A stretch of 64,000 nt of DNA from Cheilinus undulatus (Eukaryota; Chordata; Actinopteri; Labriformes; Labridae). Where the stretch lies: NCBI RefSeq assembly GCF_018320785.1, contig NC_054886.1:34842110-34906109 (forward strand), written 5' to 3'. The notes beneath the pieces are model-generated. The model saw only the letters and a list, made by a program, of their open reading frames with translations. It was not told the origin of the DNA and made no database searches. The translations under genes were made by a program, and so were the position numbers. Positions 11,205 to 63,930 of this stretch are shown here, piece by piece (position 1 is the first letter of the stretch; each line of letters starts with the position of its first letter).

Positions 11205-11212
11205 ATTTAAAC

Positions 11213-12161
11213 CAGTGTTACTCAACCCTGCTCAACCAAACGGCCAAATTGTTGAAAAACACCTTTGCAAGAGAAACAATCTACTTGGTGAAGCAAAAAC
11301 AGCACAAAATACAATAAGAATTAGTTAAAGGTAGAAAAAAATGGTCAAAAAGCAACAAAAATGGATGAAAGGGAGTAAGAATGGGGTGGAAAGGGGAGAA
11401 AAGGGGTCAGAAAGCAGCAAAAAATGGGTGAGAAGTGACAAAAAAAGAGTTATATCTGATATTAAATGGTCCAAATGTGGCAAGTAATGAGTGAAAAGTG
11501 ACTAAAATGGGCAAAAAGCGGTCAAAAGTGGCAAAAATAGGCAAAAACTAGGAAAACAGTGGTATTTACTGACAAAAGGGAGCTTAAATGGGCAAAAAAT
11601 GTTAGAAAAAATGGTGAAAAAGGGGAAAAAATGCGATAAAAGCGGCAAAAATTGGGTAAAAAGTTGAAAAAAAATTGTAGAAATGGGCAGAAAGTGGGAA
11701 AAGTTGTATTAAAATGGCATAAGGTAGCTTAAATGGTCGAAAACTGGCCAAAAAAATGGTGAAAAGGGGCAAAAATGGGGTTAAAGTGGCAAAAAAAAAG
11801 TGTCAAAATGGGCAAAAACTAGGAAAACAGTGGTATTTACTGACAAAACGTAGCTTAAATTGCTGAAAAATGTTAGAAAAAATGGTGAAAAGGGGCAAAA
11901 ATGGGATGAAAGTGGCAAAAATGGGTATAAAGTTGAAAAAAGTGTCAAAATGGGCAAAAAAAGTAGGAAAAAATGGTATTTAATGGCAAAAGGTAGCTTA
12001 AATGGGTGAAAAGTTGAAAACAATGGTTAAAAAGGAGCAAAAAATTTTTCCTCTTTTAAAGTTTTTTGGGGGAATAATATTTAAAATTAAGACATAAAAG
12101 AGCCACAAATCATCACAAAAGGGCCACATGTGGCTCCAGAGCCACAGGTTGAGTATCACCG
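11213..12161 (+). mobile_element. Non-autonomous hAT element with minisatellite core (family A)
   Basis: The left end is CAGTGTTACTCAACC and the right end GGTTGAGTATCACCG, an inverted pair. The 8-bp target duplication ATTTAAAC at 11205-11212 and 12162-12169 is perfect, which identifies the hAT superfamily. Between the ends is about 700 bp of irregular tandem units built on AAAAATGGGCAAAAAGTGGC, followed by the terminal text GAGCCACATGTGGCTC. There is no transposase. Confidence 0.85.
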
Positions 12162-12289
12162 ATTTAAACCACATCAGATAAGAATGAAGCTCCTTGGTCT
12201 ACCGTCTTCGACCAGACCGTCCTACTTTACAGAACTCAGACCAAATTCAGCTGAGCCGTTCTTTCAGTGCTCTAAGGCAGATCAGGGTC

Positions 12290-17063: not shown

Positions 17064-20000
17064 TCATTTTCTACCCGCTCTGGTCTTCTTCACGGCTTTC
17101 TTCTCTTTCCTTTTGGCTCGGGGGTTTTTACAGAGGGGGGATAGGGGGGTCTGGCTCTGCTGGAGAGGACTGGGGTCTATCTTAGAGGGGGCGGAGTTTA
17201 AGAAGACTGGCAGCTCCTTAGACGGACCAGGGAGGGGAACAGGCTGAGGGGTGTCCAGGTCAGTGAGTGGAGAAGCTTTAGGAATCTCTGAGACCTGTCA
17301 AAGAAATAAGAATGTTTAATTTATTGTTTTTAAGTTTAATAATAATAGAAGTATGAATGAATAGAAATAATAATAGAAGTATGAATGAATAGAAATAATA
17401 ATAGAAGTATGAATGAATAGAAATAATAATAGAAGTATGAATGAATAAAAATAATAATAGAAGTATGAATGAATAAAAATAATAATAGAAGAATAAATGA
17501 ATAAAAAATACTAGTATTCACCTCCTTGATGCTCGTCTCTGCAGTCCTGGTGATTCTGCTCAGACAGTCTTCACAACTACACCAAAAAGAAGAATTACAT
17601 AAAACTGACTGATTAAAAAATATCAGAAAGTTTGATTGGGCAATTTGTCATTGACAAGTTGGTGTCATAACCACATAGAAACTACTGCCCAAAGATATTA
17701 ATATGTGAAATACCAATAATATCACTGATCCAGTCTGTTATAACAGAGGAGGATTACAGCCACTGAAAATTAGTCTGAGATCCAACCCGCTGTCAAAAAA
17801 CAATCTGAATTCTAAGAAATGAGGTCAAAAATCTGAGATTAGAGTCTGGAGTTTGGAATTAAGGTCTGAATCCTGAGATCAAAGTCTGAATACTGAGATC
17901 AAAGTCTGAATCCTGAGATTAAAGTCTGAATCCTGAGATTAAAGTCTGAATCCTGAGATTAAAGTCTGAATCCTCAGATCAAAGTCTGAATCCTCAGATC
18001 AAAGTCTGAATCCTGAGATTAAAGCCTGAATCCTGAGATTAAAGTCTGAATCCTGAGATTAAAGTCTGAATACTCAGATCAAAGCCTGAATCCTGAGATT
18101 AAAGTCTGAATCCTGAGATTAAAGTCTGAATCCTGAGATTAAAGTCTGAATACTCAGATCAAAGTCTGAATCCTAAAATTAAAGTCTGAACCCTGAGATT
18201 AAAGTCTGAATACTGAGATTAAAGTCTGAATCCTGAGATTAAAGTCTGAATCCTGAGATTAAAGTCTGAATCCTGAGATTAAAGCCTGAATCCTGAGATT
18301 AAAGGCTGAATCCTGAGATTAAAGTCTGAATCCTGAGATTAAAGTCTGAATACTCAGATCAAAGTCTGAATCCTCAGATCAAAGTCTGAATCCTAAAATT
18401 AAAGCCTGAATCCTGAGATTAAAGTCTGAATCCTGAGATTAAAGTCTGAATACTCAGATCAAAGTCTGAATCCTCAGATCAAAGTCTAATCTCAGTATTC
18501 AGACTTTAATCTCAGGATTCAGACTTTAATCTCAGGATTCAGACTTTAATTTTAAGATTCAAAGTCTGAATACTCAGATCAAAGTCTGAATCCTCAGATC
18601 AAAGTCTGAATCCTCAGATCAAAGTCTGAATCCTAAACTTAAAGCCTGAATCCTGAGATTAAAGTCTGAATCCTGAGATTAAAGTCTGAATACTCAGATC
18701 AAAGTCTGAATCCTAAAATTAAAGCCTGAATCCTGAGATTAAAGTCTGAATACTGAGATTAAAGTCTGAATCCTTAAATTAAAGCCTGAATCCTGAGATT
18801 AAAGTCTGAATACTGAGATTAAAGTCTGAATCCTTAAATTAAAGCCTGAATCCTGAGATCAAAGTCTGAATCCTGAGATTAAAGTCTGAATCCTGAGATT
18901 AAAGTCTGAATACTGAGATTAAAGTCTGAATCCTTAAATTAAAGCCTGAATCCTGAGATTAAAGTCTGAATACTGAGATTAAAGTCTGAATACTCAGATC
19001 AAAGTCTGAATCCTGAGATTAAAGCCTGAATCCTGAGATTAAAGTCTGAATACTGAGATTAAAGTCTGAATACTCAGATCAAAGTCTGAATACTGAGATT
19101 AAAGTCTGAATACTCAGATCAAAGTCTGAATCCTTAAATTAAAGCCTGAATCCTGAGATTAAAGTCTGAATACTGAGATTAAAGTCTGAATACTCAGATC
19201 AAAGTCTGAATCCTGAGATTAAAGTCTGAATCCTGAGATTAAAGTCTGAATCCTGAGATCAAAGTCTGAATACTGAGATTAAAGTCTGAATACTCAGATC
19301 AAAGTCTGAATCCTAAAATTAAAGCCTGAATCCTGAGATTAAAGCCTGAATCCTGAGATTAAAGTCTGAATCCTGAGATTAAAGTCTGAATCCTGAGATT
19401 AAAGTCAGGATTCTTAAACTGAAGTCAAAGCTTTCTTCTTTCAAAAACATAAAAAAATGTATCCTGTGGCCCTCATCCTCTTCTGTACTTTTCTTAATAT
19501 TGATTGACAATAAACAATCCTGTCTCCTTCATTCAGGGTTGCTGTCTTTAAAAAAAGTTTAAAAAACATTTATCAGATCACAGTTAACATGTTTACTTGT
19601 TGTCTCCAATTTTTCCTTCGTTACATTCAGAATCTTTTTCTTTTAAATAGAACGATGGGGTTAAAAACAGACTCTTATATATGAGAAAGATGTACCTTAT
19701 AAAGTAGTTGTCAAAAACAAAGGTGCAGGTTTATTTATATCTGCTCATTTCCTCCTACTAAATTACAGACACAGCCCTTCCAGGGACCCTGGTCCCCGTT
19801 TACAAACCTCTACCCTCTACTAAAGCTAAATCTACCTGTTACCTGCTCATGTTTCTCAGCTGTTCCTCCATCTGCTGCAGCCTCTTCTCCAGCTGCTTCT
19901 TCTCCTCCTGAACCCCTGACAGGTGCTTACCCAGAATCCTCAGCGAGCGCTCCCTCACCTGCTGCTGAGCCTGTGACAGAGACTATAAAATATTTACACT

Positions 20001-23000
20001 GTTTAGAAATGAATGATAAGGAAACGCTGAGTTTTCCTCTCTGAGTCTTCACAGGTAATAACAGGTAAGATGTCAGTAAATGTCTGCTGGATTCAGAGTA
20101 GTTCACCTGTTTGCTCTCTCTCAGCGTCGCCTGAGTGTCGCTCTGCTCTGAGTGTGTACTCGCTCGCTGCTGCAGCGTGTTCAGGGCGTGTCTCTGTTCC
20201 TGCAGCAGCGCCTGAGCTTCCTGCTCTCTGCTCAGCGCCTGACGGAGCTCCTCGCACACGCTGACGAACCGATCAGCTGGGACCTGCAAACACAGAGCCA
20301 GGGGTGTGTTCACGGGACAGTACAGGTGTGTTCATGACTCCACTTAGCTTGGCTCTAGTCACTTTGACCACCAGACACTTCATTTTACATTACAGTATAC
20401 ACGCTGACTGTAATGGGCCCAGAAAAACTAGATCTGAAAAGTCCTGGACTATTGTAAAGGTGAGCTGTAAAAACCATATTCTATTTCTGACCTACATAAT
20501 AACCACTCTGATAAAAGCAACCAAAATGAATCTGGTTTATTCACACTGTAGTGGACAGCTTTAAAAAATATAGACTCCCTTTATTATATCAGAATTACCT
20601 TTTTGTTCTAAATGTTAATAGTATGGATGGGCAAACAGAGCTAGAGCAAAGGAGAGTAATGTCAGACTTCAGAGCTTAGCCATGATCTGAAAAAACGTCA
20701 TTATACCAGAAAAAAAGAAGAAGAAATTGAAATATAATAAAAATAACTGAAAAATGGCACACACAAAAATGTGACATTTGGCTAAATTGGTTAAAAATGG
20801 CAAAATCTGTCAGAAAAAGTGTTGAAAAGTGGTAACAGAGTGGCAAAATGGTTTAAAAAAGTGACAAAACTGGGTTAGAGCAATAAAAATGAGACACAAG
20901 AAAGCCAATAAGGGTAAAAAAATGGGTGGAGAAAAGCAGTAAAACTGTGGAAAAAAATAAAACTAAGGCAGGAAAGGGTCAAAAACAGATGACAAAATAG
21001 AAAAGAGTGGTAAAAAAAAAAGTGGAAAAGATGGGTCAAAGGAATCAAAATGGGAAATAAATGGCAGAAATAATCGAAAAGTGGCTAAATTGGTGACTAA
21101 AACTGTGGAAAAACTGTGGAAAAACTGGGAAAAAATTGGTTCAATGTGGTGAAAATGGACAGAAAATGGCATTAATTTGTTTGATAAGTTATATTAGGTC
21201 ATAAATAGGTTAAATAAGGCAAAAATGGATAACAAAGTGCAAAATAGGTAAAAGAAAAATTTTAAATGTGGGGAAACAGAAGCAAAAATGGAAAACTGGC
21301 AGAAAAATGGTGAAAAGCAGTTAAAAAGTGGCAAAAATTTGATAAAAGTGTCAAAACTGGGCAAAAGTGGCTGGCTTAAGAAGCGAAAAGGGGATAAAAA
21401 CAAGCAAAAATACGTTTAAATAGGTTTAAATATGGGAAACAAATGGCAAAAAAATTGTAAAAATATGGAGTCAAAAATATAATGGGCAAAAACAGGTCAA
21501 AGTGGCAGAAAAAAAGGTGCAAACGCCTCTAAGAAGTGGCAAAAATGGATTAAAGGTGTCTAAAAATGGGTAAAAAGCGAGAACAATGGTTGACAGAGGC
21601 AAAAATGGGCAGAAAAGGGAAAAATAGGGGATGTAGCACTATATTATGTAGTAATGCCGCATTTTGTAAGCCACTAAGCGGTTAGAGTAAGGGCAAGGTA
21701 TTTGGGTAGGGCATACCTTGGAGCCCACACTAAGTCCTATTGTTAGGGTTATTACATAATGTGGCATTATTACATAATGTGGCGCTACAGAGGACTTAGG
21801 TAGTGAAAATGGGTTAAAACAAGACAAAAATAGGTTTACAGTGGCAAAATAATGGGCAACGATTGGCAATGAAAGAGGCAAACACAGGGAAATGTGGCAA
21901 AATGGGAAAGAGAGACAAAGCAAGGGTCAGATGAGCAGACAAATGATGAAAAGCAGTTAAAAAGTGGCAAAAATGGGCAAAACCAGACTAAAAGAGGTAA
22001 AGCGCAAAATATGTGTAATAAGTTAAAGGGGGTTTCAATAGCAAGAGTGGTTAAATAAGGCAGAAAAATAGGTAAGAGAAACTGGTAACATGGGAAAAAG
22101 TAGCAAAATGGCAAACTGGCAGAAAAATGGTGAAAAGCAGTCAAAAAGTGGCAAAAAATTGCTAAAGGTGTCAAAACGGGGCAAAAATGTCTGGCTTAAG
22201 TAGTGAAAAGAGGATTAAAAACAAGCAGGAAAAGGTTATAAGTGGCAGAAATGGGCAACAAATGGAAAAAAAGAGGGTCAAACTGGCAGAAAAAGAGGCA
22301 AACCTCTAACAAAGGGGCAAAATAAATGGGTTACAGGTGTCAAAAATGGGTAAAAAGTGGTAAAAATGGAGGGTTTAGGTAGTAAAAACGGGTTAAATCA
22401 ACACAGAATCAGGTTAAAAGTGGCAAAAAAAAAAACTTGACAGAGGAGGGAAATAAAGGGAAATGTGGCAAACATGGGTAAGAAAGGCTAAAAAAAGGCT
22501 CCGACAGGTTGAAAGATGGTGAAAAGGAGCTAAAAAGTGCCAGAATGGTTAGCTGAGTAGTCCTGACTAAGTATAAGCTAGATTAGAGGGTGATACCAGG
22601 TGTGAGGTGTGATCCCTGATGGAGACTTTGATGAGTCTAGACCGGTTTAGTCTGAACCACATGAGGAAAAGTGCTTTAAACATTTTATTCTCACTGTTTT
22701 AGACGTCTCTCTTCTCTCCCGCCTCGATCCTCTCCTCAGATTGGACACCTCCAGCCTCAGGCTCCGCCTCTCTACCTCAGCGGAGTGCAGACGTTGGCTG
22801 AAGAGCAGGAAGTGCTGTTGGAGGGTGGAGACTAAAGCCTGATGGGAGGTGGGATAACAGAAACAACACGGTTATAAAGCCACGCCCCTTTGACCGATGG
22901 ATCACCTCATAATCCACTATCAAAGAGACCTTCATGTTTGTGGCATTGCTCTCTTTGTCTTCAACTCTGCCTGGAGACAGGCTGGGCGGGCCGTCTGATT

Positions 23001-32000: not shown

Positions 32001-35000
32001 TCCAGAATATAACCAGTGAGCTGTTTGGGCAAGTCACAACTTTATCCAGATAAACATACAGACTAAAAATGCACTGTGTTTGTGCCCAAGGCTAAATGGT
32101 TAGGGTTAGAGCCAGACTGCTATCGTTTCATGCTGGAGTAGCATTTTTTGAAAGTAAAAATCACCAGAACCCTTGCAATGGAAAAATATTGAACATGTAG
32201 AGTTAGTGCTGCCATTTATCCCTTTAGATTACATGCTGTAAGCAGTGATTACCTGAAAATATGATGTGAAAAACAGTTTTTAACCCTTGTGCCCTCCTCT
32301 AATTTACTACCCTCTCGACACCTTTGAGGCAAAAATGTACATGTACAGAAAAATTACCATTAAATCAGCATACATCGATATTTTTCCACTTCTTTTTCAT
32401 AAATCTCTTTAACAACTTTAGACTTGCTCAAAACTACAAAAAAATTCAATAATTCTCAGAATTTTAACCCTTTTAATGCCAGTTTGATTATTTGAAATAT
32501 TTCATTTTTACTTCAAAAAACACAAAAAGTGGATTATTTTCCATAAAATTAATAGTAGAAAGATGGGGCTTGGTGCTAATGAGAGTCTTGGATGAGTCAA
32601 AGATTAGCAACAAAATTGATTTGATTGCATTTATATTTTTTACGTAATGTCAGAAATACTCTCTGGGCACCTTCGAGGCAAAAATGCCCCCATTGACTTC
32701 CATTAAAACCAGGTTTTTTAATCTCACTGTCCTTTCAGTATAAAATCATGCATTCTTTAATGTCAGCATTTCAGTGTGAAGAAGTCTAATGAAATTTGAC
32801 ATTTTTACCGTATTCCACCAGATTCAACCATTTACTCATTGTAGGACCATGCACCAGATTCTTGTGTTTTTGCCCATTATTTTATGGAGAGTTTTGTGTG
32901 AGTTTAAAAGGGTTAAAATTCTGAGAATTATTGAATGTTTGGTAGTTTTGAGCAAGTCTGTAGTTGTTGAAGATAATTATGAATAAAAGTAGAAAAAATA
33001 TTGATGTATGCTGATTTAATGGCAGTTTTTTTTTGTACGTGTACATTTTGCCTCAAAGGTGTCCAGAGGGTGCCCTAATGTTAAAGCTGGCATTACATGA
33101 AAAATACAAGCACAATGAAATCAATTTTGTTGCTAATCTTTGACCCATCCAAGACTCTCATCAGCACCAAAGCCCCTATTTTCTACTATTAATTTTATGG
33201 AAAATAATTCATTTTTCTGTTTTCGGTAGTAAAAAAATATTTCAAATAATCGAACTGGCATTTAAAGGGTTAAAATCTTGAAAATTATTGAATGTTTGGT
33301 AGATTTGAGCAGGTCTGAAGTTGTTTAAGAGATTTATGGGAAAAAAAGTAGAAAAAAATATTGATGTATGCTGATTTAATAGCAGTTTTTATGTACGTGT
33401 ACATTTTTGCCTCGAAGGTGTCCAGAGGGTACAAAATTCATTGAGAGAGTATGAATGACATTTAAATTTTTTGGATTTAAAAAATTAAACTATAAAGAAA
33501 AGTTCCTGTAAAAATTCATGCCACAAGCTGTAAAACTGACAATATCATCACAAATTAAAAAAAAAAAAAAAGTTGAGAAAAATGGCCAAAAATGCCCGAG
33601 GAGGGCACAAGGGTTAAGTATTAGTCATAGTAGAGTATTAACTGAACTGATATCACTGAAAAGAAAGAACATATGCATTAATAACTGCAAAAACTCAAAT
33701 CCTATCAAGTCTAACTTTCATTAGAAACTCTGATAGCACTTCTTTAATGCCACATTACAATGAAAAGTCCAAGAAAAATCAAGTTTCAAGACATAAAAAG
33801 TAAAAATAAGGCCTGAATATGTTTTTGTTGTTGCACTGGCAGATATTATTTGCTTATTACAAACAACTAAGTCCTTCTAATTTGCTTGTTGTGTCGTCAA
33901 TAATTTGACTTGGCTTGTATTTAGTGTAGAAAACTATTTTGATTGAATACAGTGGGTGCATATTGAGATTTCCCGTGTAAAGTTGAGGTGTACCTTGCTA
34001 GCTGCTCCTCAGAGTTCCTCCCGGCGCTCTGCTGGGTCTCCCGGGGTTCAGCTCTGCTCTGCCCGCTCTCCCCCCGCCTGCCTCGGTCACGCAGCCTCCT
34101 CCGCTCCGCTGGTTCCACCTGCATAGCTCCGTTTATTGTAGTTCATTTATCAATCCTGAAAATTCAAATAATAATTACACCGCTATCGTCACACAAAGCA
34201 AATGAGCAACATAGCATTTGACTAAAATGGACATTTCAGAATTTCAAAAAAGGTTTTATTGTTGCACATTTACCTCATCTTTACACTTGAACCACCATGG
34301 ATCTCTATATACCTAAAACAGCCCACGGGTCAAATTCACCCGTCATTAAAGTGCCTTGATTTTCATAAATAGCACTGATCAAGGACTGTTAATTAACCAC
34401 TGACACTGAACAGCTTATTAACCACAGATGGAGAACTAGATCACTGTTGGAAGATGATCCGTCACCTAGAAAATCGTCTTTTTACTGACTGACATTTAAC
34501 AATGGTAAATGTCTCTTTTTCCCTGTAATATCCATGTTGAAGGCTGATCTATCGACTTAGGCTTTGCTGCAGTAGAGAGAAGGTATTTCCATTGCACCAT
34601 CTATTTATTGCTGGTGTGAAATGATACAGTGGCAAAATCAAGGCTTTTTATGGGGTAAATCTGACCTGCATGGTGGTTCTAGATATAAATGTACATTAAC
34701 AAAATTTGAGATTAGGCTAAGATTTATTTTTATGACATCAGGTGCGATAAAACAAGCTTTTAGGAAAAGGCAATGACTGACTATAGTCTATCAAACTGTA
34801 AACACATCAAATAAGATACAATTAAAAAACAACCCTGGGTAAATTTGACCCATTGGCAGTTCTAGAGTTAAAGCGGTTCATTTCACATATATCTCAGCTG
34901 TCTCCCTTTAGTAAATATCAGAGTCTCTGGAGGCTGGTTCAGGACCAGGGCAGGCTGGTTCAGGACCAGGGCAGGCTGGTTCAGGACCAGGGGAGGCTGG

Positions 35001-37633
35001 TTCAGGACCAGGGCAGGCTGGTTCAGGACCAGGGCAGGCTGGTTCAGGACCAGGGGAGGCTGGTTCAGGACCAGGGAGGCTGGTTCAGGACCAGGGGAGG
35101 CTGGTTCAGGACCAGGGGAGGCTGCTTTAGGACCAGGGGAGGCTTGTTCAGGACCAGGAAGGCTGGTTCAGGACCAGGAAGGCTGGTTCAGGACCAGGAA
35201 GGCTGGTTCAGGACCAGGGGAGGCTGGTTCAGGACCAGGGGAGGCTGGTTCAGGAGCAGGGGAGGCTGGTTCAGGACCAGGGAGGCTGGTTCAGGACCAG
35301 GGGAGGCTGGTTCAGGACCAGGGGAGGCTGGTTCAGGACCAGGGGAGGCTGGTTCAGGACCAGGGGAGGCTGGTTCAGGACCAGGGGAGGCTGGTTCAGG
35401 ACCAGGGGAGGCTGGTTCAGGACCAGGGGAGGCTGGTTCAGGACCAGGGGAGGCTGGTTCAGGACCAGGGGAGGCTGCTTGAGGACCAGGGGAGGCTGGT
35501 TCAGGACCAGGGCAGGCTGGTTCAGGACCAGGCAGGCTGGTTCAGGACCAGGAGGCTGGTCTAGGACCAGGAGGCTGGTTCAGGACCAGGGAGGCTGCTT
35601 TAGGACCAGGGGAGGCTGGGTCAGGCCCAGGGGAGGCTGGTTCAGGACCAGGGAGGCTGGTTCAGGACCAGGGAGGCTGGTTCAGGACCAGGGGAGGCTG
35701 GTTCAGGACCAGGGCAGGCTGGTTCAGGACCAGGGGAGGCTGGTTCAGGACCAGGGGAGGCTGGTTCAGGACCAGGGGAGGCTGGTTCAGGACCAGGGCA
35801 GGCTGGTCTAGGACCAGGGAGGCTGGTTCAGGAGCAGGAGGCTGGTTCAGGACCAGGAGGCTGGTTCAGGACCAGGAGGCTGGTTCAGGACCAGGGAGGC
35901 TGGTTCAGGAGCAGGAGGCTGGTTCAGGACCAGGAGGCTGGTTCAGGACCAGGGAGGCTGGTTCAGGACCAGGGGAGGCTGGTTCAGGAGCAGGGGAGGC
36001 TGGTTCAGGACCAGGGAGGCTGGTTCAGGACCAGGGGAGGCTGGTTCAGGACCAGGGCAGGCTGGTTCAGGACCAGGGGAGGCTGGTTCAGGACCAGGGG
36101 AGGCTGGTCTAGGACCAGGGGAGGCTGGTTCAGGACCAGGGGAGGCTGCTTTAGGACCAGGGGAGGCTGGTTCAGGACCAGGGGAGGCTGGTTCAGGACC
36201 AGGGGAGGCTGGTTCAGGACCAGGGCAGGCTGGTTCAGGACCAGGGGAGGCTGGTTCAGGACCAGGGGAGGCTGGTTCAGGACCAGGGGAGGCTGGTTCA
36301 GGACCAGGGAGGCTGGTTCAGGACCAGGGGAGGCTGGTTCAGGACCAGGGGAGGCTGGTTCAGGACCAGGGGAGGCTGGTTCAGGACCAGGGGAGGCTGG
36401 TTCAGGACCAGGGAGGCTGGTTCAGGACCAGGGGAGGCTGGTTCAGGACCAGGGGAGGCTGGTCTAGGACCAGGGGAGGCTGGTTCAGGACCAGGGGAGG
36501 CTGCTTTAGGACCAGGGGAGGCTGGTTCAGGACCAGGGGAGGCTGGTTCAGGACCAGGGGAGGCTGGTTCAGGACCAGGGCAGGCTGGTTCAGGACCAGG
36601 GCAGGCTGGTTCAGGACCAGGGGAGGCTGGTTCAGGACCAGGGGAGGCTGGTTCAGGACCAGGGCAGGCTGGTTCAGGACCAGGGGAGGCTTGTTCAGGA
36701 CCAGGAAGGCTGGTTCAGGACCAGTTAGGCTGGTTCAGGACCAGGGCAGGCTGGTTCAGGACCAGGGCAGGCTGGTTCAGGACCAGGGGAGGCTGGTTCA
36801 GGACCAGGGGAGGCTGGTTCAGGACCAGGGGAGGCTGGTTCAGGACCAGGGCAGGCTGGTTCAGGACCAGGGAGGCTGGTTCAGGACCAGGGGAGGCTGG
36901 TTCAGGACCAGGGCAGGCTGGTTCAGGACCAGGGCAGGCTGGTTCAGGACCAGGGGAGGCTGGTTCAGGACCAGGGGAGGCTGGTTCAGGACCAGGGCAG
37001 GCTGGTTCAGGACCAGGGCAGGCTGGTTCAGGACCAGGGGAGGCTGGTTCAGGACCAGGGAGGCTGGTTGCTTGGCTGCTGGTGTTGCCTTGCCATCAGA
37101 CGCTCACATGAAGCCAAAACAATCTCCGTTTACTCATTAACCGAATATAAACCGATTATACCTTTCTAATAACATCAGCAGGAGCAGAACAACCTAACAC
37201 ATTAACACAGAGACCCGGAACGACTAATTCAACATAAATCAATTTTAACACATATTACCGGTATTTTATGACTACAGAACAGCCTTCATGTTTTATAAGT
37301 GTGCTACAATAACGGAATTTACCAGTAGATAACAGAAAGGTCTTGTTTCGGATATATATTAACATACAACATGAACATCTTTAATATTCGGCAGTAAAAA
37401 CGTCTCTCCACTTTGTAAACGTAAATCTGTTCACAACACCAAAGACCAAAACAAAGCGCCGTTTAACGGTAAATGTCTTCAAAGGCCTCCAAACAAACTT
37501 ACATCGGTAGAAACGCTTCAAACAACTAACTGCTATCTGGTACATTTAATAGAAAGTGGAAATGTAATGTAATAAAGTTTTTATACACACTTACAGCAAC
37601 ACTACTACCGCAGCCGTTTGAATCTGACGCCAT
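17064..37633 (-). CDS. ccdc171: Coiled-coil domain-containing protein 171, complete
   Basis: There are twenty-one exons: 37633-37595, 34118-33994, 31959-31692, 31466-31316, 31227-31058, 28746-28600, 28529-28437, 28356-28196, 28045-27907, 26238-26151, 26077-25959, 25887-25798, 25694-25437, 24201-24034, 23946-23148, 23072-22906, 22838-22695, 20283-20107, 19982-19843, 17576-17522, 17294-17064. They sum to 3,729 bases in one frame (1,242 residues; human is about 1,326). The start is MASDSNGCG, with donor GTAAGT after residue 13. Family marks include LEKEKLELTSSHNQE, ESSIEAERASHLESKFNSE, YRLYQRLLAGCVLLDQP, WEELCDVISEQVD, SACALLVGAL and RLHSAEVERRSLRLEV. Almost all of it is heptad coiled coil, with an Arg/Glu-rich stretch near residues 560-610. 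The last 95 residues are unlike human and end in a basic tail (KRKEKKAVKKTRAGRK). The protein's function is poorly known. The weakest splice sites are the acceptors of exons 2 and 3; an alternative start at 34124 in exon 2 is possible. Confidence 0.92.
17336..17513. repeat. 28-bp tandem repeat
   Basis: About six copies of a 28-bp unit containing AATAGAAGTATGAATGAATA lie in the last intron of ccdc171, next to the penultimate exon. Confidence 0.9.
17820..19412. repeat. 20-bp minisatellite, about 80 copies
   Basis: The unit is AAAGTCTGAATCCTGAGATT, with variants ending CTCAGATC, CTAAAATT or CTTAAATT. It runs in near-perfect 20-bp phase for about 1.6 kb in the intron between the last two long ccdc171 exons. 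At about 18486-18562 a few units are inverted. No unique spacers are present. Confidence 0.95.
20750..22545. repeat. Family A hAT minisatellite, ends lost
   Basis: Long irregular arrays of AAAAGTGGCAAAAATGGG-type units, like the cores at 11.3, 53.4 and 60.6 kb, fill a ccdc171 intron. Two segments (about 21230-21420 and 22050-22260) are near copies of each other. I could not find clean terminal repeats. Confidence 0.7.
21633..21788. mobile_element. Small MITE nested in the minisatellite
   Basis: A 156-bp insert with inverted ends: the left end starts GTAGCACTATATTATGTAGT and the right end finishes CATAATGTGGCGCTAC. The inner text repeats the theme (TAATGCCGCAT against ATGTGGCATTA). It interrupts the purine-rich repeat around it. 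Confidence 0.7.
24310..25235. repeat. Second polypurine tract
   Basis: Over 900 bp of GAAGG/GGAGGAAGA repeats fill the ccdc171 intron between the exons at 24034-24201 and 25437-25694. The open frames within are compositional artefacts. It is similar in type to the tract at 14.4-16.2 kb. Confidence 0.9.
26332..27867. mobile_element. hAT element with expanded core (family B)
   Basis: The ends are TAGGGCTGGGCAATTC and CGCTCAGCCCTA, with a perfect 8-bp target duplication, GTTTAAGG (26324-26331 and 27868-27875). The 1.5-kb interior consists mainly of degenerate tandem units around AAATTTTGGGGAATTTGATT and GTAGCTTTGATTTTTT, with a longer period of very roughly 180 bp. There is no transposase frame. 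The right end stops only 39 bp from a ccdc171 exon. Confidence 0.85.
28925..30760. repeat. 30-bp minisatellite grading into 15-bp repeats
   Basis: From about 28985 to 29640 there are about twenty copies of a 30-bp unit starting TGAGTCTGTTAATCCTGAAT. The unit itself contains two related 15-bp halves. Up to 30760 it degrades to irregular CCTGAGTCTGTTAA motifs. It fills a 2.3-kb ccdc171 intron. Confidence 0.9.
32284..33613. mobile_element. piggyBac-like MITE, complete
   Basis: Both ends carry the TTAA target (32280-32283 and 33614-33617). The terminal repeat reads CCCTTGTGCCCTCCTC on the left and its inverse on the right. Inside, a segment around GCCTCAAAGGTGTCC and GAAATATTTCAAATAATC occurs three times, once inverted near the left end and twice direct on the right, so the element has grown by internal duplication. 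It lies in a ccdc171 intron. There is no transposase. Confidence 0.85.
34284..34867. mobile_element. piggyBac-like MITE, second family
   Basis: The left end is CACTTGAACCACCATGG. The right end read inversely is CTCTAGAACTGCCAATGG. Sub-terminal GGGTCAAATTCACCC and GGGTAAATTTGACCC are also inverted. TTAA is intact at the right (34868-34871) and altered to TTTA at the left. It lies in ccdc171 intron 1. Confidence 0.7.
34925..37072. repeat. G-rich 17-21-bp minisatellite, about 100 copies
   Basis: The unit is GGCTGGTTCAGGACCAGGGG plus A or C, with shorter forms ending in GGGA, GGA or GA. The array is about 2.15 kb within ccdc171 intron 1. Each unit contains a small inverted pair, CTGGT and ACCAG, around TCAGG, so single strands could form serial hairpins. 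Larger blocks are themselves repeated (36040-36180 resembles 36400-36540). The long open frames here are not genes. Confidence 0.95.
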
Positions 37634-45178: not shown

Positions 45179-46189
45179 CAGGGGCCGGATTCGGGATTCA
45201 GGTCTAACTTGAGGGCCTAACAGGGTCAAGATTTAACCAGATCTGTCAACCTCATTTTCATCAGCAATAAAATATGAAAAAATAAACAGCACTGATGATA
45301 AATCATTTGGAAATCCATAAAAGTTAAAATAATAAGTTTAAAGGCTCAAATTATGAGTTCAAAAGATCAGAACACTATATCAAAAATAGAAAAAATGTTT
45401 TTGAAGAGCAAATATGAGGAGAAAAGTTTAAACCGTAAGTTTCAAAGGTGAAAATATGAGATCATTTTTTAAATCATGAGTTTAAGAGTCAAAATATGAC
45501 TTAAAATTCTAAATTGTAAGTCTGACAGTTCAAAATATTGGATTAAAAAGCCAAAAAATACAAATTGAAAATGTCAAAATAGGAGCTAGAATTCAAAATG
45601 ATGACTTAGAGTTAAAAATATCACTAAAATTCAAAATTCTAATGTAAAAGGTCAAAATATGATGTGAAAAGTAAAAATTAGTCATTTAAAATGTCAAAAT
45701 AAGAGGAATTAAAAAAATTTAAATCATGTTTTTAAAAGTCAAAATATGGAATTAAACAGCCAAAGGAGCTGAAAAGGTCAAAATATGACTTTAAATTTAC
45801 AACTGGGAATCTAAGAGATAAAAATGTGACATATAAAATCTAATTTATGAGTTGAAAAGGTCAAAGTATGAAATGAAAAGTCAAAATCATAAGTTTGAGT
45901 CATAATCTTGATACAAAATTGAAAATATGAAATAAAACAAATTATTTTCTTTCCCCCACATTCTTGACCTTTCATGAAATCTTTCTCACTCTTTACTTTT
46001 CAGATTTTTATGGCTTAACAAGGATATTTTAAATAATCAAGTTGAAGTTTACATTTTTATACTGGAGGAAACCTGCAGACCTCAGACTGGTGGGCCAGTT
46101 AGAATACAAATATGGTATGATCTTGTGGGCCGGATATAATAATTCCACGGGCCAGATTTGGCCCCCGGGCCTTGAGTTTGACACCCGTG
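45179..46189. mobile_element. hAT element with minisatellite core (family C)
   Basis: The right end is GGGCCTTGAGTTTGACACCC, the typical end of a common vertebrate hAT group. The flanking 8-mers GTCCAGAG (45171-45178) and GTCTAGAG (46190-46197) match at seven of eight positions. The core is about 700 bp of units such as AAAGTCAAAATATGANTTNAAA. There is no transposase. Confidence 0.75.
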
Positions 46190-46565
46190 GTCTAGAGTTT
46201 TTCTATTTGGGTGGCCTACATGAGGGAATGTTTGAATGAATGAAGCATTTTTCTGTCTAACCTCTAATATCCCACAGATGTTCTATTCCTGTGACGCTTA
46301 TTTGCTTAACTCTTAAATTTTAAGGGCTGAACAATCCTGCATGCCCAGTTTACGCTGCCTTTTTTAACGCTACTTTTTCTAAGTGCACACAGTTACTGCA
46401 ACAGTACATTTGGCCTGCTGGGCAACCAGAGTGGACGTCTGGCCTTGTTAAAAAGAAGGAACCATGCCCTCCTAGTCCAGGCAGCCATAGACATTCATGC
46501 AGGAGGCAGAGTCCTCCTGGCCAGAGTGGTTTCCTGTTTGTCTTGTTTTTTTGAGTGCAGCATTA

Positions 46566-48691: not shown

Positions 48692-48889
48692 CTGCAGAGG
48701 CAACAATAATGATCACCTTCAATAAAGACTGAGTTTTAATTCAGGATGTTCTCTGGCATCCATTACCCCATTTAGCTAAACACCCATTTAAACTGGATTT
48801 AACCGACTAGTGTAAAAAGTAGGAAATACTAAGAAAACAGTCAAAATCCTCAGAGTCATTGTGTGAGCGGGTATGATAACTCAACCCTG

Positions 48890-50035
48890 CTCAACCAAAG
48901 AGCCAAACTGTTGAAAAATACATTTGAAAGAGCCACAGTCTAAGTGTTGAAAAGAGATAAATACCCAAATATCTAACCATAATTCATCAACTCTTTGAAA
49001 AGATCCTCATTGCTCAAACTCGGCTCGTTCAAATATCTTCAAAATTCTTGGGCCAGGTGGAACTTCGAAGATACCAGTCTTTGGCCCGACACCAGCATTA
49101 TCAAAGTCACCACTTTTCAGGGAATAAATAAAATATTATCTTGATATTTATTACTGATTTAAGATTGATTAAAACCACTGACACATGGAAAGGGTGACCA
49201 ACAGCACTGATACAAGGTTTTAACCTGATGTCAGTGATAAATAAAATAAATATATGCTCATTATCAGTGATATATGGTTTTATCTGACACTATACAGACA
49301 TTTGCATCCCTTTTAACCTCATAATTATCCACCAAGTCACTGTTTTATTTCAACTATGGATTAACTGCTCTATAATCTCCATGGTGAAAAGGGACAAGAA
49401 TGGGTTAACTTGGCAATGAAAACAAGTTAAAGTGGTAAAATGGTCGAAAAATGGCAAAGAAGTAAAAAAAAAAATGGATGAAAGTTGGCAAGCATTGGGA
49501 GAAAAAGAGGCATTAAATGGTGAAAGGCAGCTTAAATGTGCAAGAAGGGGGAAAAAATTCAAAAAGGGGAAATTTTAGAAAATAGCAAAAAGCAAGCGAA
49601 ACAAGGCAAAAACTGATAAGTTAGTCAAAAATGTGGCAAAAAATTAGTGTACAAAAAGCGGAAAGAAGTGACAAAAATGGTCAAAAACTGGGGAGAAAAA
49701 AGTGGCAAAATTGATTAAAAAATGAGTTAAGGGTGGAAAAAATGGTCAAAAACCAAAAATGTGGCAAAAATGAGTGAAAAGAGACAAAAATGGACAAGAG
49801 TGGCAAACTGGTCAAATCTAGCAAAGGAGTGGCAAAAAATGGCAATTATCTGGAGAAAAAGTGGTAAAATTGATTAAAAAATGAGTTGCAGGTGGCAAAA
49901 ATGCAGTAAAATGTGGCAAAAATAAGTAATTCAGATGGGAAAAGTGGCATTTCATGGCAAAAAAGCAGCTTAAATGTGCAAGAAGGGGCACAAGATGGAA
50001 AATAACAAAAACGAGGACAAACTAGTGAAAAATGG
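48890..50035. repeat. Family A hAT sequence, broken
   Basis: The left terminal text AACTCAACCCTGCTCAACC is at about 48890. Purine-rich AAAGTGGCAAAAATG units resume at 49380-50035 after about 400 bp of other DNA. The right terminal repeat is missing. Confidence 0.6.
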
Positions 50036-50168
50036 CACAAGAACCCAGCCCAATATGAAAGGTTTTTATCAGATTAACTCGTTAATCTCTGAATTACTTC
50101 AGGGCATCCCGCCCATAAAACAGGACATAAAGGTAAAACGGAGGGACAGGATCAGGAAAGCCTGGGGC

Positions 50169-50754: not shown

Positions 50755-51892
50755 ATAGATACTTTATCTGGAGTAACAAAGACTTTCTCTGCAAAATAAG
50801 TTAAAACCGGGTCAACAATGACATCATGCTGTCAGCCAGTTACTAAATCAAAATGGTCAGTTATATGGGTACACTGGATTCTTGGAAAAATACCCCTTCT
50901 CTAATATCATAGTGGAACAATGTTGAAGATGATCTACTTTGGAGAAGTCTGGTCTTTGCCTTTCCAGTTTTAAATCACTAACAAAGTCAGAGAAATCTCA
51001 TCTAAACGTTTCCCCAGACTCTACCCCGCTAAAGCACTCCTTCAGAAATATAAACATGATATTACTGACATAAACTGCTCTCTCTGCAATAACTCACCAG
51101 AAACCACCTCACATCTGTTTTGGACTTGTTCATTTACAGATGAATTTTGTTTCTGATTTACAGACGAGAGACACAGACAAACTTTTTGTTATAAACCTTT
51201 TATTTTTAAAAAGGTTTAAAACCTGGCTCAAAACCTTTCTTTCCAGCGTTTGTATCCGGACTCAAAATCTCTGTCAAGCGCTCTGAAAACACCAAAGTAC
51301 GGAAGAGTATTAGGGCCACTGAAGAAAAAATTAGAGACGATTTTTTTTTTTTCACTTGTGAGAAAAAAGTCAGGATTCTGAGATTAAAGTCAGAATTCTG
51401 AGATTAATCTCAGAATTCTGAAAAAAAAATTTGAGACTTTTTTTTTCATTTGAAGAATAAAGTCAGAATTCTGACTTTTTTCTCAGAATTCTGACTTTAA
51501 TCTGAGAATTCTGACTTTAATCTGAGAATTCTGACTTTTTTCTCAGAATTCTGACTTTAATCTGAGAATTCTGACTTTAATCTGAGAATTCTGACTTTTT
51601 TCTCACAAGTGAAAAAAAAAATTTCATCTCAAAATTTTTCTTTTTCAGTGGCCCCAATACTCTTCCATACCAAAGCTATTAAGACTTTGCAAATAATAAA
51701 AAAATATCTACACAGTGTTACTGTGTGACTGTGCAAGACTAGAAAAAAACAAAGTTGATGCTTCCTTACCCTTGGAAATATTTATTTCTATTATGTACTT
51801 TCCTACTTTTGTTACCGTTTATAATTATTTTTTTCTATGGTTGTATTTATGTTTCTGTATGTACCTTTGTGTTTCAGTAAAAAAAAAAAATG
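50755..51892 (+). pseudogene. L1-type LINE 3' fragment
   Basis: The start reads FIWSNKDFLCK in one frame. Later, CSLCNNSPETTSHLFWTCSF is the Cys/His module at the end of L1 ORF2. The fragment ends in TTTGTGTTTCAGTA and a poly-A run at about 51879-51890. It is split by a younger transposon at 51298-51669 and has stops, so it is inactive. Confidence 0.8.
51298..51669. mobile_element. MITE nested in the L1 fragment
   Basis: The inverted ends read TACGGAAGAGTATTAGGGCC and, inverted from the right side, TATGGAAGAGTATTGGGGCC. CCAAAG flanks both sides (51292-51297 and 51670-51675). The core is an alternation of AAAGTCAGAATTCTGAGATT-type units and their inverse, making the element largely palindromic. 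Confidence 0.85.
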
Positions 51893-52735: not shown

Positions 52736-55700
52736 ATGGCGGCGCCCTCAGAACACGTTGAAGCCGCCTCCCCAGAGACAGATCCTCCTAAAATGACCAT
52801 AAAAGAAGATTATGAGACCACCAAAGACCCGGAGACCTCAGACTCAGAACCGAAAGATCAGGACCAAGACTCAGGTGAAGATGAGGATGAGGATGGAGGC
52901 GAGCCTCCCGCACCGAGGATCCGAGACACCCCTCAGGACATCAGGCTGGAGGCGATCGCCAACACGGTCGCTCTCCACCCGAGCAGAGACGTCCTGGTGG
53001 TCGGGGACGTGGACGGGGACGTGTACGCCTACTCCTACTCCTGTACTGAGGGGGCGAACAAGGAGCTGTGGTCGTCCGGACACCACATGAAGTCCTGCAG
53101 GCAGGTCCGGTTCTCCTCAGACGGGCTGAAGCTCTACAGCGTCTCTAAGGACAAAGCGGTCCACCTGCTGGACGCGGAGAGGGGGCAGCTGGTGACCAGG
53201 ATCCGGGGGGCGCACGAGGCTCCCATCAACAGTCTGCTGCTGGTGGACGAAAACATACTGGCGACCGGAGACGACAAGGGGACCCTGAAGGTCTGGATGG
53301 GTCCTTTAAGGGTTTAGTGCCATGACCAGGATTAAAAAATACCCTTGCAAGAGCCACAATCTGAGTGGAGAGAAGTGGCAAAAACAGGTTAACTTGGAAT
53401 AAAAACAAGTTAAAGTGGTGAAATGGTCCAAAAGCCACGAAGAAGTGACAAAAAAATGGGTGAAAGTTGGCAAAAATTGATTAAAAATGTGTTAAAGGTG
53501 GCAAAAATTGATTAAAAATGTGTTATAGGTGGCAAAAATTGATTAAAAATGTGTTATAGGTGGCAAAAATGCAGTGAAATGTGGCAAAAATGAGTAACAA
53601 AAAATGGTAAAAAAAAAAAAAAAAAAGCCTTCCTTAAGAAAAGGCAGCTTAAATGTTCAAAAAGGGGGAGAAAATGGAAAATAACAAAAGCAGGCTAAAC
53701 AAGGCCAAAACTGGTGGAAAAAAATTGGTAATAAAAAATCAGTGAAAATGTGGCAAAAAGTGAGCGGACAAAAAATGGACAGAAGTGACAAAATGGTCAA
53801 AAACTTGGGAGAAAAAGTTTCAAAATTGATTAAAAAATGAGTTACAGGTGACAAAAATTCTCAAAACCTAAAAACGTGGTGGAAAAAAAGTGAAAGAGAC
53901 TAAAAGGGACAAAAAATGGCAAAAATAGGAAATAAAGTAGCATTCAAGATAAAAATTTGATAACAAAAACTGAGTTACAGGTGGCAAAATTGGTCAAAAA
54001 ATAGTAAAAATGTGGCAAAAATGAGTGAAAAGAGACCAAAATTGACTGAAGTGGCAAAAATGGGTAAAAAGTGGCAAATAATGGGTGAAACTGGCATAAA
54101 TTGGAAGAAAAATTGGCAAAATAGGTTTAAAAATGAGTTACAGGTGACAAAATTGTTCAAAAAATGGTAAAAATGTGGCAAAAATGAGTGAAAAGAGACT
54201 TTAAGGGAAAGAAGTGGCAAAAATGGGGAAAAAGTGGCATTTAATGGAAAAAGGCAACTTAAAGGGGCAAAACCCGGCAAAAATTGATTGATAATGGAAA
54301 AAAGGGGGGGAAATTTTTCAGATAAGGGCAAAGGAAATATACAAACAAAAAAATAAAGGTTGACCTTTTTCTAAGCCAACTACACAAGAGTGGGAAACAA
54401 ACTGATTAATGTTTCATGCAGTGTATAATTTCTGAGGTTAAATTTGACCTTTTTTAAGTTTTGGGGGGGAAATATCTCAAATAAAGACATTAAAGAGCTT
54501 CATATCACCGGAAAAGAGCCACATGTGGCTCAGGAGTTTCACTGATTTGAAGTATCCATGTAAATCCATTAAATAGATGACAGACTAATGTATGTCTGTA
54601 AAAAAAGCCCTGAACAGACCAATGAAAATCAAGCCTCCATGCACCCAGTCTGAGATGGCTGTACCCTCCTCTGACCGTTTGTTTGTTTGTTTGTTGTTGG
54701 AGGTGTGGGATATGAGGAAGGGGACGGCCATCATGGATCTGAAACACCATGAGGATTACATCAGTGACATCGCCGTGGACCAGGCCAAGAGGATCCTCCT
54801 CACTGCCAGGTAAACAGAATTTAACCTGCAGCTCATACTGGTGGACTGGTTTTCTCTGTCCATTCTGAACCACAAACTAAAACCACCGAGGTTTCAGAGC
54901 CTCTTTGACCCCAACAAGCCAAACTCTGACGTCTTAACCAAGCATTTATCCTGATTCAGCGGCGATGGTACCATGGGCGTCTTCAACATCAAGCGGCGAA
55001 GGTTCGACCTGCTGTCCGAGTTTCAGAGCGGCGATCTGACCTCAGTGGCGATAATGAAGCGAGGGAAGAAGGTGGTCTGTGGTTCCAGCGAGGGAACCAT
55101 CTACATCTTCAACTGGAACGGCTTCGGCGCCACCAGCGACCGCTTCGCCCTCAAGGCCGAGTCGGTGGAGTGCATCGTCCCCGTCACAGACAGCATCATG
55201 TGCACAGCGTCCATGGACGGATACATCCGGTGAGTTTGGCTAGTCCAGGGCTGTTTAAGAACGAAATGTCCAAGGCCTCAAATGTCACAGATCTGAACTG
55301 AAGTAAGAGTCTTTTCTGGGTCTTTTGAAGATCTAAAGCGACCAATCAAACAATCAGACATTTCCAGGTTAGAGTTTTGATTTCTTCGTTTGTCAGAGAT
55401 CTCAGGTGATCTTAAAGATCAAAATGACCAGTCAGCATATGTCTTAATTCTTAGAAATGTCCTAAAATGATCTTCTGATGGTCTAGGTTTGTCTGGAAGA
55501 GGTCCACAAGGTCTGTCAGTGGTCCATCCTGATGTTTTTGTACCCTAAACAGGTTTCGCTGCCTATAAAATCATTAAAAATGGCCATAAGATGGTCAGAC
55601 TTTTCTTAAAACCTTTGGGTTGGCCAAACTGGTGTTAATACCATTGACTGGTCCTTTAGATGGACCCGCTTGGACCTTCAATGACCTTCAATGACCCTGG

Positions 55701-58950: not shown

Positions 58951-59290
58951 TCAGCAGTTTTCAAAGTGTGAGGTGGGCCTCCCCTGGGGGGCGCCACAGA
59001 GCTTCAGGGGAGGCGTGGAACCATAAACCAGAAAAAAAAAAGTGATTTGCTTTCCTACCTTCTGCTGTGCATGGAGGAAAATGAATAGACTTATAGTAAC
59101 TATAAGGCAGTGATACTCAATGTGTGATTATTAGTGGCTCTTTGATATCTTCTTTTAAATATTATTCCCCCAGAAAACCTTAAAACAGAGAAACTTTTTG
59201 TCCCTTTATACCATTTTTCGACTCTTTTCACCCATTTAAGAATCCTTTTGTCACTAAATACCACTTTTTTCTAATGGAAGCCAATTCCCA
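58951..59290. mobile_element. Two hAT relics
   Basis: The text 58952-59035 (CAGTTTTCAAAGTGTGAGG, then CCCCTGGGGGGCGCCACAG) is the end of a hAT family with a TTTCAAAGTGTG terminal repeat. The text 59106-59290 (CAGTGATACTCAATGTG, TTAGTGGCTCTTTG, GCCCATTT-like) is the end of a family A element in inverted orientation. Both are truncated. Confidence 0.55.
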
Positions 59291-60598: not shown

Positions 60599-61945
60599 CA
60601 GTGTTACTCAACCAAAGAGCCAAATTGTTAAAAAGAACCTCAATCTAAGTGGTGAAAAGTGGCAATTAAAAAAAGTTAAAATTGGTCAAAAAGCAGCAAA
60701 CACTGGGAGAAAAAGTGGCAACAAAGGCCAGAATGTGGCAAAATGGGTCGGAAGTGACCCTACATTAAGTTAAGGGGGCAAAAATCAGCAAAAAGGTGGG
60801 GAAAATATGGCAAAAAGTGTCATTTTATTGCAAAAGGCAGCTTAAATGGGCAAGAAGTGGCAAAAACAGGCACAAAGGGGCAAACACTGGGGGAAAAGTG
60901 GCAAAATGGGTTACAGGTGCCAAAAACTTGACAAAAATGAGTGAAAAGCAACAAAAATGGGTAAAATATTATAATACAGTTGGAAAATAGGGAATTAACT
61001 TAAGTGGAATTTAACTGCAAAAGGCAGCTTTAATGGGTGAGAAGTGGCAAAAATAGGCAACAAGGGGCAAAAAGTTGCAAAAAAAGCAGGATCAAAGTGT
61101 CACAAATAGATTGAAACATGACACAAAGAAGTGGCAAAAATGCGCCAAAGAGCGTAAACACTGGAAGAAAAGGGGCAGAAAGTGGCAAAATGGGTGAGAT
61201 GTGGAAAAAAATGGTTCAAAAGTGGCAAAAATGTGGCAACAAATGAGTGAAAAGTGGCTAAAATGGGCAAAAATCAGCTAAAAGGTGTCATTTAATTGCA
61301 AAAGGTAGCTTAAATGGACGAGAAGTGGCAAAAATAGGCAAAAGGGGAAGAGTGGCAAAAATGGGTTACAGGTGGCATATATGGTCTAAAAGTGGCAAGA
61401 ATGTGACAAAAACAAGTGAAAAGCGACTAAAATGGGTAAAAAAATTAGCAAAAAAGGTGGGAAATAGGGAATTGCGTGAACTTTAACTGCAAAAGGCAGC
61501 TTAAATGGGTGAGAAGTGGCAAATAGGGGCAACAAGGGGCAAAAAGCAGTATTAAAGTGTTATAAATGGATTGAAAAGTGACAAAAATGGGGCAAAAGTG
61601 GCAAAAATGGGTGTGATGTGTTAAAAAAAAAGAGTTACAGGTGACAAAAATGGTCCAAAAGTGGCAAAAATGGGGCAAAAATAAGTGAAAAGTGACCAAA
61701 ATGGGCAAAAAGGTGGCAAAATGGGCAAAAAGCATCAGAGTGGCAAAATGGAAAATAGGTCGCATTTATTTGGAAAAGGCAGCTTAAATGGGTGACAAGT
61801 GGTTAAAAGGGTGACAAAAGGTGCAAAAAATTGCAGAAAGCAGGATAAAAGTGTCAGAAGGTAGTGGCAAAAATGGGAATATTGTTTCAAACTCAGACAT
61901 AAAAGCGCCACATGAGGCTGCAGAGCCACACGTTGAGTATCTCTG
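60599..61945 (+). mobile_element. hAT element with minisatellite core (family A)
   Basis: The ends are CAGTGTTACTCAACCAAAG and GCCACACGTTGAGTATCTCTG. The flanking 8-mers GTTTATAT (60591-60598) and GTTTTTAT (61946-61953) match at seven of eight positions. The core of about 1.25 kb is AAAAGTGGCAAAAATGGG-type units with a longer repeat marked by GGCAGCTTAAATGGG. It lies in the first intron of the PWWP gene. Confidence 0.8.
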
Positions 61946-63161: not shown

Positions 63162-63930
63162 CAGTGATACCCAACGCGGCTCTTTTGTGATGATTTGTGG
63201 CTCTTGTTTGTCTTAATTTGAAATATTTTTCCCCAGAAACCCTAAAAATAGAGACTTTGACCTCAGAAATTATCCATTGCAAGTCTCATTAATCAGTTTA
63301 TTTCCCACGCTCATACAGTAGGTATTAATGGTCAAACTTTATTGTCCACTATTTTTTCTCTGTGTATTTCCATTGCCTTTATCTGCATTTTTTGTCCCTT
63401 TTTACATTTTTGTCACTTTAAATCCATTTCTGCTGCTTTCAGTCCATTTTTACCACTTTAAGCCACTTTTCATTCATCTTTTGCTACTTTTGCCCCATTT
63501 TTGCCCTTTTCACCAGTTTCAGCCACTTCTATCCTGCTTTTTTGCTATTTTTCCTCCTTTTTTGCCACTTTTCATACATTTAAGATGCCTTTTGCCATTC
63601 AATGCAATTTCTTCCCCCATTTCCCCATCTTTTTTGCCCATTTTAGTCACTTTACACTAATTTTTTGCTGCATGTTTGACCAGGTGGGACTCAATTTCTT
63701 GTGACTTTGCACCCATTTTTGCCACTTTTCACTCAGTTTTGTCCATTGTATGCCTATTCTTCCCCACTTTTATCCCCATTTTTGCTGCTTTTTGACCATT
63801 TTTGCCTCCTTTCACTTATTTTTATTGCCAATTTAACTGTTTTGCCATTTCTCAACCCTTAAGTTGGGGCTCTTGCAAAAGCATTTTTCAGCAATTTGGC
63901 TCCATGGTCGAGCAGGGTTGAGTAACACTG
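63162..63930 (-). mobile_element. hAT element with minisatellite core (family A), inverted
   Basis: The ends CAGTGATACCCAACG and GGTTGAGTAACACTG are inverted. The flanking 8-mers CCCTAAGC (63154-63161) and CCCTAAAC (63931-63938) match at seven of eight positions. The core reads CCATTTTTGCCACTTTT-type units, the inverse of the other family A copies. It lies in an intron of the PWWP gene. Confidence 0.8.

Follow-up and report, generated by a model that had tools for sequence, protein, structure and literature searches.

The element E1, at positions 11213 to 12161 of the 64-kb stretch of DNA that we analysed (hereafter the window), is, as far as its sequence indicates, one copy of a large non-autonomous hAT-type family (family A) with Buster-like target sites and a tandem array carried as cargo. 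The array was largely inherited rather than grown from a seed at each site, since its order is common to most sampled pairs of copies and the last unit of one copy usually matches the last unit of another. Its inner units of approximately 124 or 144 bp vary in number and turn over locally. The ends, the duplications and the common order are best read as transposition of the element with the array as cargo, and we consider it very probable that transposition spreads the array already formed and that it is then edited in place, the inner units turning over fastest.

E1 is divided into a left arm of approximately 110 bp, a core of approximately 725 bp and a right arm of approximately 115 bp (Table 1). 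Its ends, CAGTGTTACTCAACC on the left and CGGTGATACTCAACC inverted on the right, are alike at 13 of 15 positions and ATTTAAAC stands on either side as an 8/8 target site duplication (TSD), so that the perfect 8-bp duplication and inverted ends reported in the initial annotation proved exact to the base. hAT elements have short terminal inverted repeats (TIRs) beginning CAG/CAR-G, as does CAGTGTTACTCAACC, and 8-bp TSDs were present at E1 and in both of the genome samples described below. Members of the family are short (443-1493 bp among the E1-query copies), numerous and have common ends, and no ORF of transposase size was found in E1, where the longest (123 aa) extends beyond the element; these are features of a MITE. 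With an array that lies between the ends, varies in number and is dispersed with the element, family A has the form of a MITE with internal tandem repeats, and the ends, TSD and A-rich tandem core support the original description of a hAT-type MITE with a minisatellite core.

Table 1 Coordinates within the window of E1, its component parts and related sequences
Feature	Position	Strand	Basis	Description
E1	11213..12161	+	TIR + TSD	Complete non-autonomous hAT-type element, 949 bp
TSD, left copy	11205..11212	.	Flank sequence	8 bp, ATTTAAAC
TSD, right copy	12162..12169	.	Flank sequence	8 bp, ATTTAAAC
Left arm	11213..11322	+		With terminal inverted repeat, conserved in other copies
Tandem array	11323..12046	+		~10-bp A-tract monomers (period 10.3), landmark spacing 144, 126, 144 bp
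Landmark 1	11564..11592	+		3 edits from ATTTAATGGCAAAAGGCAGCTTAAATGGG
Landmark 2	11708..11736	+		5 edits from ATTTAATGGCAAAAGGCAGCTTAAATGGG
Landmark 3	11834..11862	+		6 edits from ATTTAATGGCAAAAGGCAGCTTAAATGGG
Landmark 4	11978..12006	+		1 edit from ATTTAATGGCAAAAGGCAGCTTAAATGGG; border unit, its closest match being the last unit of L011
Right arm	12047..12161	+		With GAGCCACA repeats and terminal inverted repeat
E2	48874..50050	+		Relative; left end and core, core collinear with E3 (global z 9.2)
E3	53326..54545	+		Relative; left end eroded, right end kept; right arm with ~125-bp unique segment
Expansion in E3	53452-53570		TRF	31 bp x 3.8
E4	60599..61945	+		Complete relative; TSD GTTTATAT/GTTTTTAT 7/8; five landmarks, spacing 187, 280, 192, 283
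E5	63162..63930	-		Complete relative; TSD 7/8; one landmark within 6 edits
E6	59108..59278	-		Right-end fragment; one landmark; best match is the last unit of E1
X20	20740..22545	+		Like monomers in an array lacking the family ends and the landmark; not counted as a copy

We searched the genome (1.173 Gb in 46 contigs), which its size and the gene-like sequences in the window suggest to be that of a ray-finned fish, and obtained two samples of family A, which have E1 and L011 in common. The E1-query sample, made up of 30 loci from the 40 scored of 6842 candidates and of 11 further stretches (one overlapping L015), comprises 41 loci at 40 places, L015 and L041 overlapping; it was picked by likeness to the whole of E1 and therefore favours E1-like cores. 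The right-end sample comprises 30 loci selected by the right end alone, blind to the core, from a search with 2639 candidates, all 40 of the 40 that were scored having matched. Right-end patterns gave 0 matches in the collections viral_contigs and genome_contigs. Both ends, accepted in the E1-query sample where the TSD reached at least 5/8 or the ends had at most 3 mismatches and at least one landmark was present, were found in 32 of its 41 loci, 24 of which have a TSD matching at 7 or 8 of 8 positions; the corresponding figures for the right-end sample are 24 of 30 loci and 19 of 24. Among the 24 right-end copies a single pair, L054 and L059, has a common 3′ flank. The ends and 8-bp duplications show that the element inserts as a unit. 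The Buster group of hAT elements is described as having the TSD consensus nnnTAnnn (PMC3517528). The left TSD copies of both samples are of this type, with T at position 4 and A at position 5 each in 23 of 24 E1-query copies (six of the 24 from one insertion) and in 18 of 19 and 19 of 19 right-end copies respectively (two of these loci being also in the E1-query set).

The core of E1 is an A-rich minisatellite with TRF periods of 20, 23 and 126 bp, built of monomers of approximately 10 bp (AAAAATGGGC, AAAAAGTGGC and variants). We identified a second level of the array, absent from the initial annotation, in which units of approximately 124 or 144 bp are marked by the landmark ATTTAATGGCAAAAGGCAGCTTAAATGGG, four of them in E1. 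Landmark counts in E1 to E6 are 4, 2, 2, 5, 1 and 1, taken as matches within 6 edits except for one E3 match at 7, two more E5 matches at 7 being left out; in 500 shuffled sequences of E1-E5, matches at 6 edits numbered one and those at 7 edits six. Copies carry 1-9 landmarks in the E1-query sample, where at least one was required, and 0-8 in the right-end sample, with none in 2 of 24. In E1-type genome copies the landmark spacing is often near 124 or 144 bp and the last interval is usually near 144. The periodic excess seen in landmark spacings lay at 10.15 bp for one sample and at 10.90 bp for the other, and we make no claim for this periodicity since the two disagree.

Five related bodies had been reported in the window, and those at 48.9, 53.3, 60.6 and 63.2 kb (E2 to E5) are of the same family, as is E6 at 59.1 kb, which was missing from that list. 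Matching of ends within the window did not locate the right end of E2. At the boundary of its left arm and core, 48954-49375, lie approximately 420 bp of non-repeat DNA flanked by GTTGAAAAG and GGTGAAAAG (by eye), probably a later insertion. The unique segment of approximately 125 bp in the right arm of E3 is found also in E5. The array at 20.7 kb (X20) has like monomers, two stretches scoring 190 and 161 in local comparison with the E1 core (0/200 dinucleotide shuffles each). It did not match the family ends, contained no landmark within 7 edits, had no bracketing inverted repeat at the settings used and in 10 comparisons showed no collinearity of unit order with E1-E5 (local z -0.9 to 2.3), and being without ends, landmark and common order it was not counted as a copy. 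X20 contains a long internal duplication, its two stretches being collinear with one another (local z 10.2), and a short insert that has the inverted ends TGTAGC...GCTACA (by eye) breaks the array near 21632-21786.

Other tandem repeats were observed in the window. At 51283-51690 inverted ends (GGAAGAGTATTRGGGCCACTGAA..., by eye) surround a 20-bp tandem core of TCAGAATTCTGACTTTAATC; the whole resembles a further, unrelated element of MITE type whose body is a 20-bp minisatellite. Arrays of approximately 20-bp GTCAAAATATGACTTAAA-like units lie at 45400-46195 and 47020-47280, the former followed by GGCCCCCGGGCCTTGAGTTTGACACCCGTG, which resembles a transposon end. Two long minisatellites were detected by TRF at 17833-19406 (20 bp x 78.7 copies, 88% match) and 34929-37069 (21 bp x 103.5 copies, 94% match), and a period of 20-21 bp is common to several unrelated arrays in the window (TRF).

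Inheritance of the array is seen in the order of its units. We compared the cores of 22 right-end copies against versions in which units of approximately 20 bp were shuffled, with 40 shuffles per pair, and 182 of the 231 pairs had a common order that beat all 40 (median z 5.1). With deeper trimming of the ends (160 bp left, 280 bp right), done to control for unique arm sequence left in the cores, the figure was 162 of 231 with a median z of 4.1; the 231 tests are not independent because pairs share ancestry. Forty-nine pairs (69 with deeper trimming) failed to beat all shuffles, and the order is weak in L045, L052, L056 and L065 (median z 2.4-2.9). Within the window five of the ten pairs among E1-E5 are collinear, with a global z of 9.2 for E2-E3 and 4.6-4.9 for E1-E4, E1-E5, E4-E5 and E3-E4, while in E1-E2, E1-E3, E2-E4, E2-E5 and E3-E5 the order is weak or absent (0.7-2.3). 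The original statement that each copy has a different unit order thus describes half of the window pairs, and fails for the other half and for most of the sampled genome pairs.

The position of individual units points in the same direction. We determined the nearest relative of units from the E1-query sample (115 units in 30 copies, four copies deriving from one insertion) and from right-end copies with at least two units (69 units). In the E1-query sample the nearest relative of a first unit was the first unit of another copy in 24 of 29 cases, and that of a last unit was another copy's last unit in 25 of 29; the right-end sample gave 10 of 19 and 15 of 19. As a control for bias from the arms, unit windows were compared without the sequence after the landmark for last units or before it for first units. 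With the right arm removed last units were still nearest to last units in 14 of 19 right-end and 14 of 20 E1-query cases (complete copies, those sharing a site excluded), whereas for first units, compared without the sequence before the landmark, the match to first units was seen in 7 of 19 and 11 of 20 cases only. The unit beside the right end is thereby shown to be inherited by position.

Change after insertion could be followed in copies that share a single site. Ten E1-query loci carry a family-A element at one place within a second repeat, the outer repeat, which has the ends TAGGGCTGGGCAAT and TTCAGCCCTA; the TSD of the inner element there is CTTTATAC or close to it. Outside the outer repeat the loci have different sequences, and in some of them 8-bp repeats can be seen there by eye (GTTTAGCC/GTTTGGCC at L037), so the outer and inner elements seem to have spread as a pair; it appears that a family-A element landed once inside another MITE, which then spread both. 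Searching with the outer 3′ flank of L024 produced 2662 candidates, of which 40 were scored as matches, and we sampled ten of the 12 best, five on contig C9 near L024 and five elsewhere. In each of these the family-A right end stands at the same junction, in altered form in L075, although having been picked for likeness to L024 they do not allow the frequency of empty outer elements to be read. On C9 of genome G000 the loci L024 and L072-L076 lie at 1.36-1.61 Mb as a cluster of composite MITEs with outer 3′ flanks 91-96% alike to that of L024, which looks like a recent local burst or segmental duplication. Genome matches of the E1, right-end and outer-flank searches lay within 10% of a contig end in 22 of 30, 21 of 30 and 32 of 39 cases respectively (20% expected), the outer MITE thus showing it as well, these counts being of best-scoring matches clustered on C22 and C9 and not of a random sample.

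The 14 inner elements measured at this site are 140, 647, 679, 681, 690, 706, 721, 727, 730, 732, 737, 748, 922 and 1170 bp in length, such that 11 fall within 647-748 bp, two (922 and 1170 bp) are enlarged and one (140 bp) is without the array. Array growth in place does occur after insertion. The outer 3′ flanks of L007 (922 bp) and L029 (730 bp) differ by just 5.6% and their inner left halves by 6.9%, and the 192-bp change therefore fell within the divergence time of these two loci. In both of the enlarged copies, L007 and L033, the 5′ outer flank matches over just 26-33 bases beside the element, so recombination between copies is possible at these loci. Mechanistically, a hAT transposase supplied elsewhere would move the element by its ends, array included; slippage between like units or their unequal exchange may account for gains of units, and microhomology or gap-repair deletion for loss of the array, as in L080.

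Changes in length might instead arise during transposition, through abortive gap repair after excision templated with slippage, and not during residence. Such a process could leave a copy like L080, where both ends and both outer flanks are kept, the array is gone and the junction has an overlap of CCTTT (by eye), and it agrees with the range of lengths among insertions (443-1493 bp); however L080 could equally be an ordinary microhomology deletion. Copies at the shared site retain the inner TSD and the outer flanks and have similar divergence, yet their lengths differ. Among 21 pairs of 7 such copies the inner left half diverges by 4.4-11.5% and the outer 3′ flank by 5.6-14.2%, and since the two parts diverge similarly no later jumps of the inner element are needed. 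We therefore regard change at transposition as rather unlikely to be the source of the length differences, and editing of an inherited array in place remains the preferred reading.

The initial annotation had proposed that each insertion brings a short seed from which an array grows independently at its site. The window considered by itself suggests as much: its landmark units are more alike within copies than between them (0.83 vs 0.56; 0/10000 label shuffles), and E3 contains a recent expansion within one copy, a 31-bp repeat whose two middle units differ at 1 of 31 bases and whose unit is not repeated in E2. Clustering of units by copy, read as growth in place, was overturned by the larger genome samples, the window having misled because it holds few copies of several subfamilies. 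Once more genome copies are included the units of E1 match other copies best, all four being nearest to another copy in the 30-copy sample and one having its closest match within E1 in the right-end sample. A signal of local amplification does persist, in that the nearest unit came from within the same copy for 12 of 114 units of the E1-query sample (label shuffles predict 2.6) and for 20 of 69 of the right-end sample (2.2 expected). Of the inner units 11 of 56 behaved in this way in the former, where their likeness was 0.946 between copies and 0.949 within them, and 16 of 31 in the latter, which makes local amplification more than negligible. The enlarged L007 and L033, as copies of one insertion, also accord with growth from a seed. 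Against it stand the core order common to most pairs, before and after deeper trimming, the inheritance of last units by position, and the 11 of 14 shared-site copies that stayed at 647-748 bp. The suggested check of core length against terminal divergence showed no rise (Spearman 0.16, p 0.39, 32 copies of the E1-query sample), length being independent of divergence. We also tried dating copies by in-copy unit divergence against terminal divergence, which was too weak and was dropped. Expansion of a seed at each site is on this evidence improbable as the main process, collinear order between copies, which the initial annotation itself had named as the refuting result, having been found, while the part of the proposal that stands is that arrays change length in place.

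A function for the array itself would give its composition another meaning. The cores of E1-E5 and two stretches of X20 show an A-tract periodicity of 10.0-10.6 bp, a signal reached by none of 200 dinucleotide shuffles in six of these seven stretches, including each of E1-E5, and by 1 in the seventh; across 54 complete copies the period is 10.30 bp (IQR 10.25-10.40). Tracts so spaced could form long curved DNA that aids the transposase in pairing the ends, but a 10-bp monomer with an A-run yields such a period by itself, and the phase is kept only slightly better than in spacing-shuffled arrays (the median z was 1.78 over the cores of 54 copies and 1.08 over the left part of 43, the copies not being independent). 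Indels among 11 shared-site copies were not tied to the monomer, with 8 of 18 at steps of 10.3 bp where 5.2 were expected (p 0.19). A functional array is accordingly a little less credible even than growth from seeds, and its specific form, a bent-DNA spacer favouring end pairing in which turnover is tolerated mainly when helical phase is kept, is the least probable of the proposals considered.

One source that has been proposed for satellite DNA is transposons that carry tandem repeats, and arrays that were inherited can seldom be distinguished from those grown at their site. Copies of one insertion show how frequently units of an array are kept, gained or lost after insertion, and the shared-site copies of family A provide a ready system for measuring array change after insertion. 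MITEs with internal tandem arrays have been described from Xenopus (Xstir, miDNA4), bivalves, lepidopterans and Porphyromonas (PMC9659126, PMC12628747, PMC4596501). Among the papers listed in our literature searches none described a fish hAT MITE whose core is a minisatellite, although the family may be catalogued in Repbase or Dfam.

The closest known system is miDNA4, described as a Tc1/mariner MITE of Xenopus tropicalis with an internal satellite (Scalvenzi and Pollet 2014, via PMC9659126 and PMC12628747). Its interior, like that of family A, holds from one to many tandem monomers and changes in copy number; family A differs in being of hAT type, in its two-level array of 10-bp monomers within 124/144-bp units and in the test afforded by shared sites. 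The Xstir/Xmix MITE of Xenopus likewise bears tandem repeats (Hikosaka and Kawahara 2004, via PMC9659126 and PMC12628747), which are said to derive from its own internal or TIR sequence (PMC9659126, PMC12628747). BrickBuilt of Porphyromonas gingivalis, as described, also has a minisatellite (23 nt) between a leader and a tail with inverted ends (PMC4596501). Tetris/TIR-220 of Drosophila virilis resembles family A in its transposon-borne tandem repeats of variable number; it is, unlike family A, reported as a foldback element with the repeats inside its TIRs, and its arrays are reported also to grow to satellites outside the element (PMC4079207). In superfamily the parallel is mar, a hAT (Buster) MITE of Drosophila that is likewise non-autonomous with an 8-bp nnnTAnnn TSD and a TIR beginning CAG (PMC3517528), although the main text of that paper describes no tandem core and does not use the word "tandem". 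Family A thus belongs with the known MITEs that carry tandem repeats, and differs from them in its superfamily, its two-level array and the evidence from shared-site copies.
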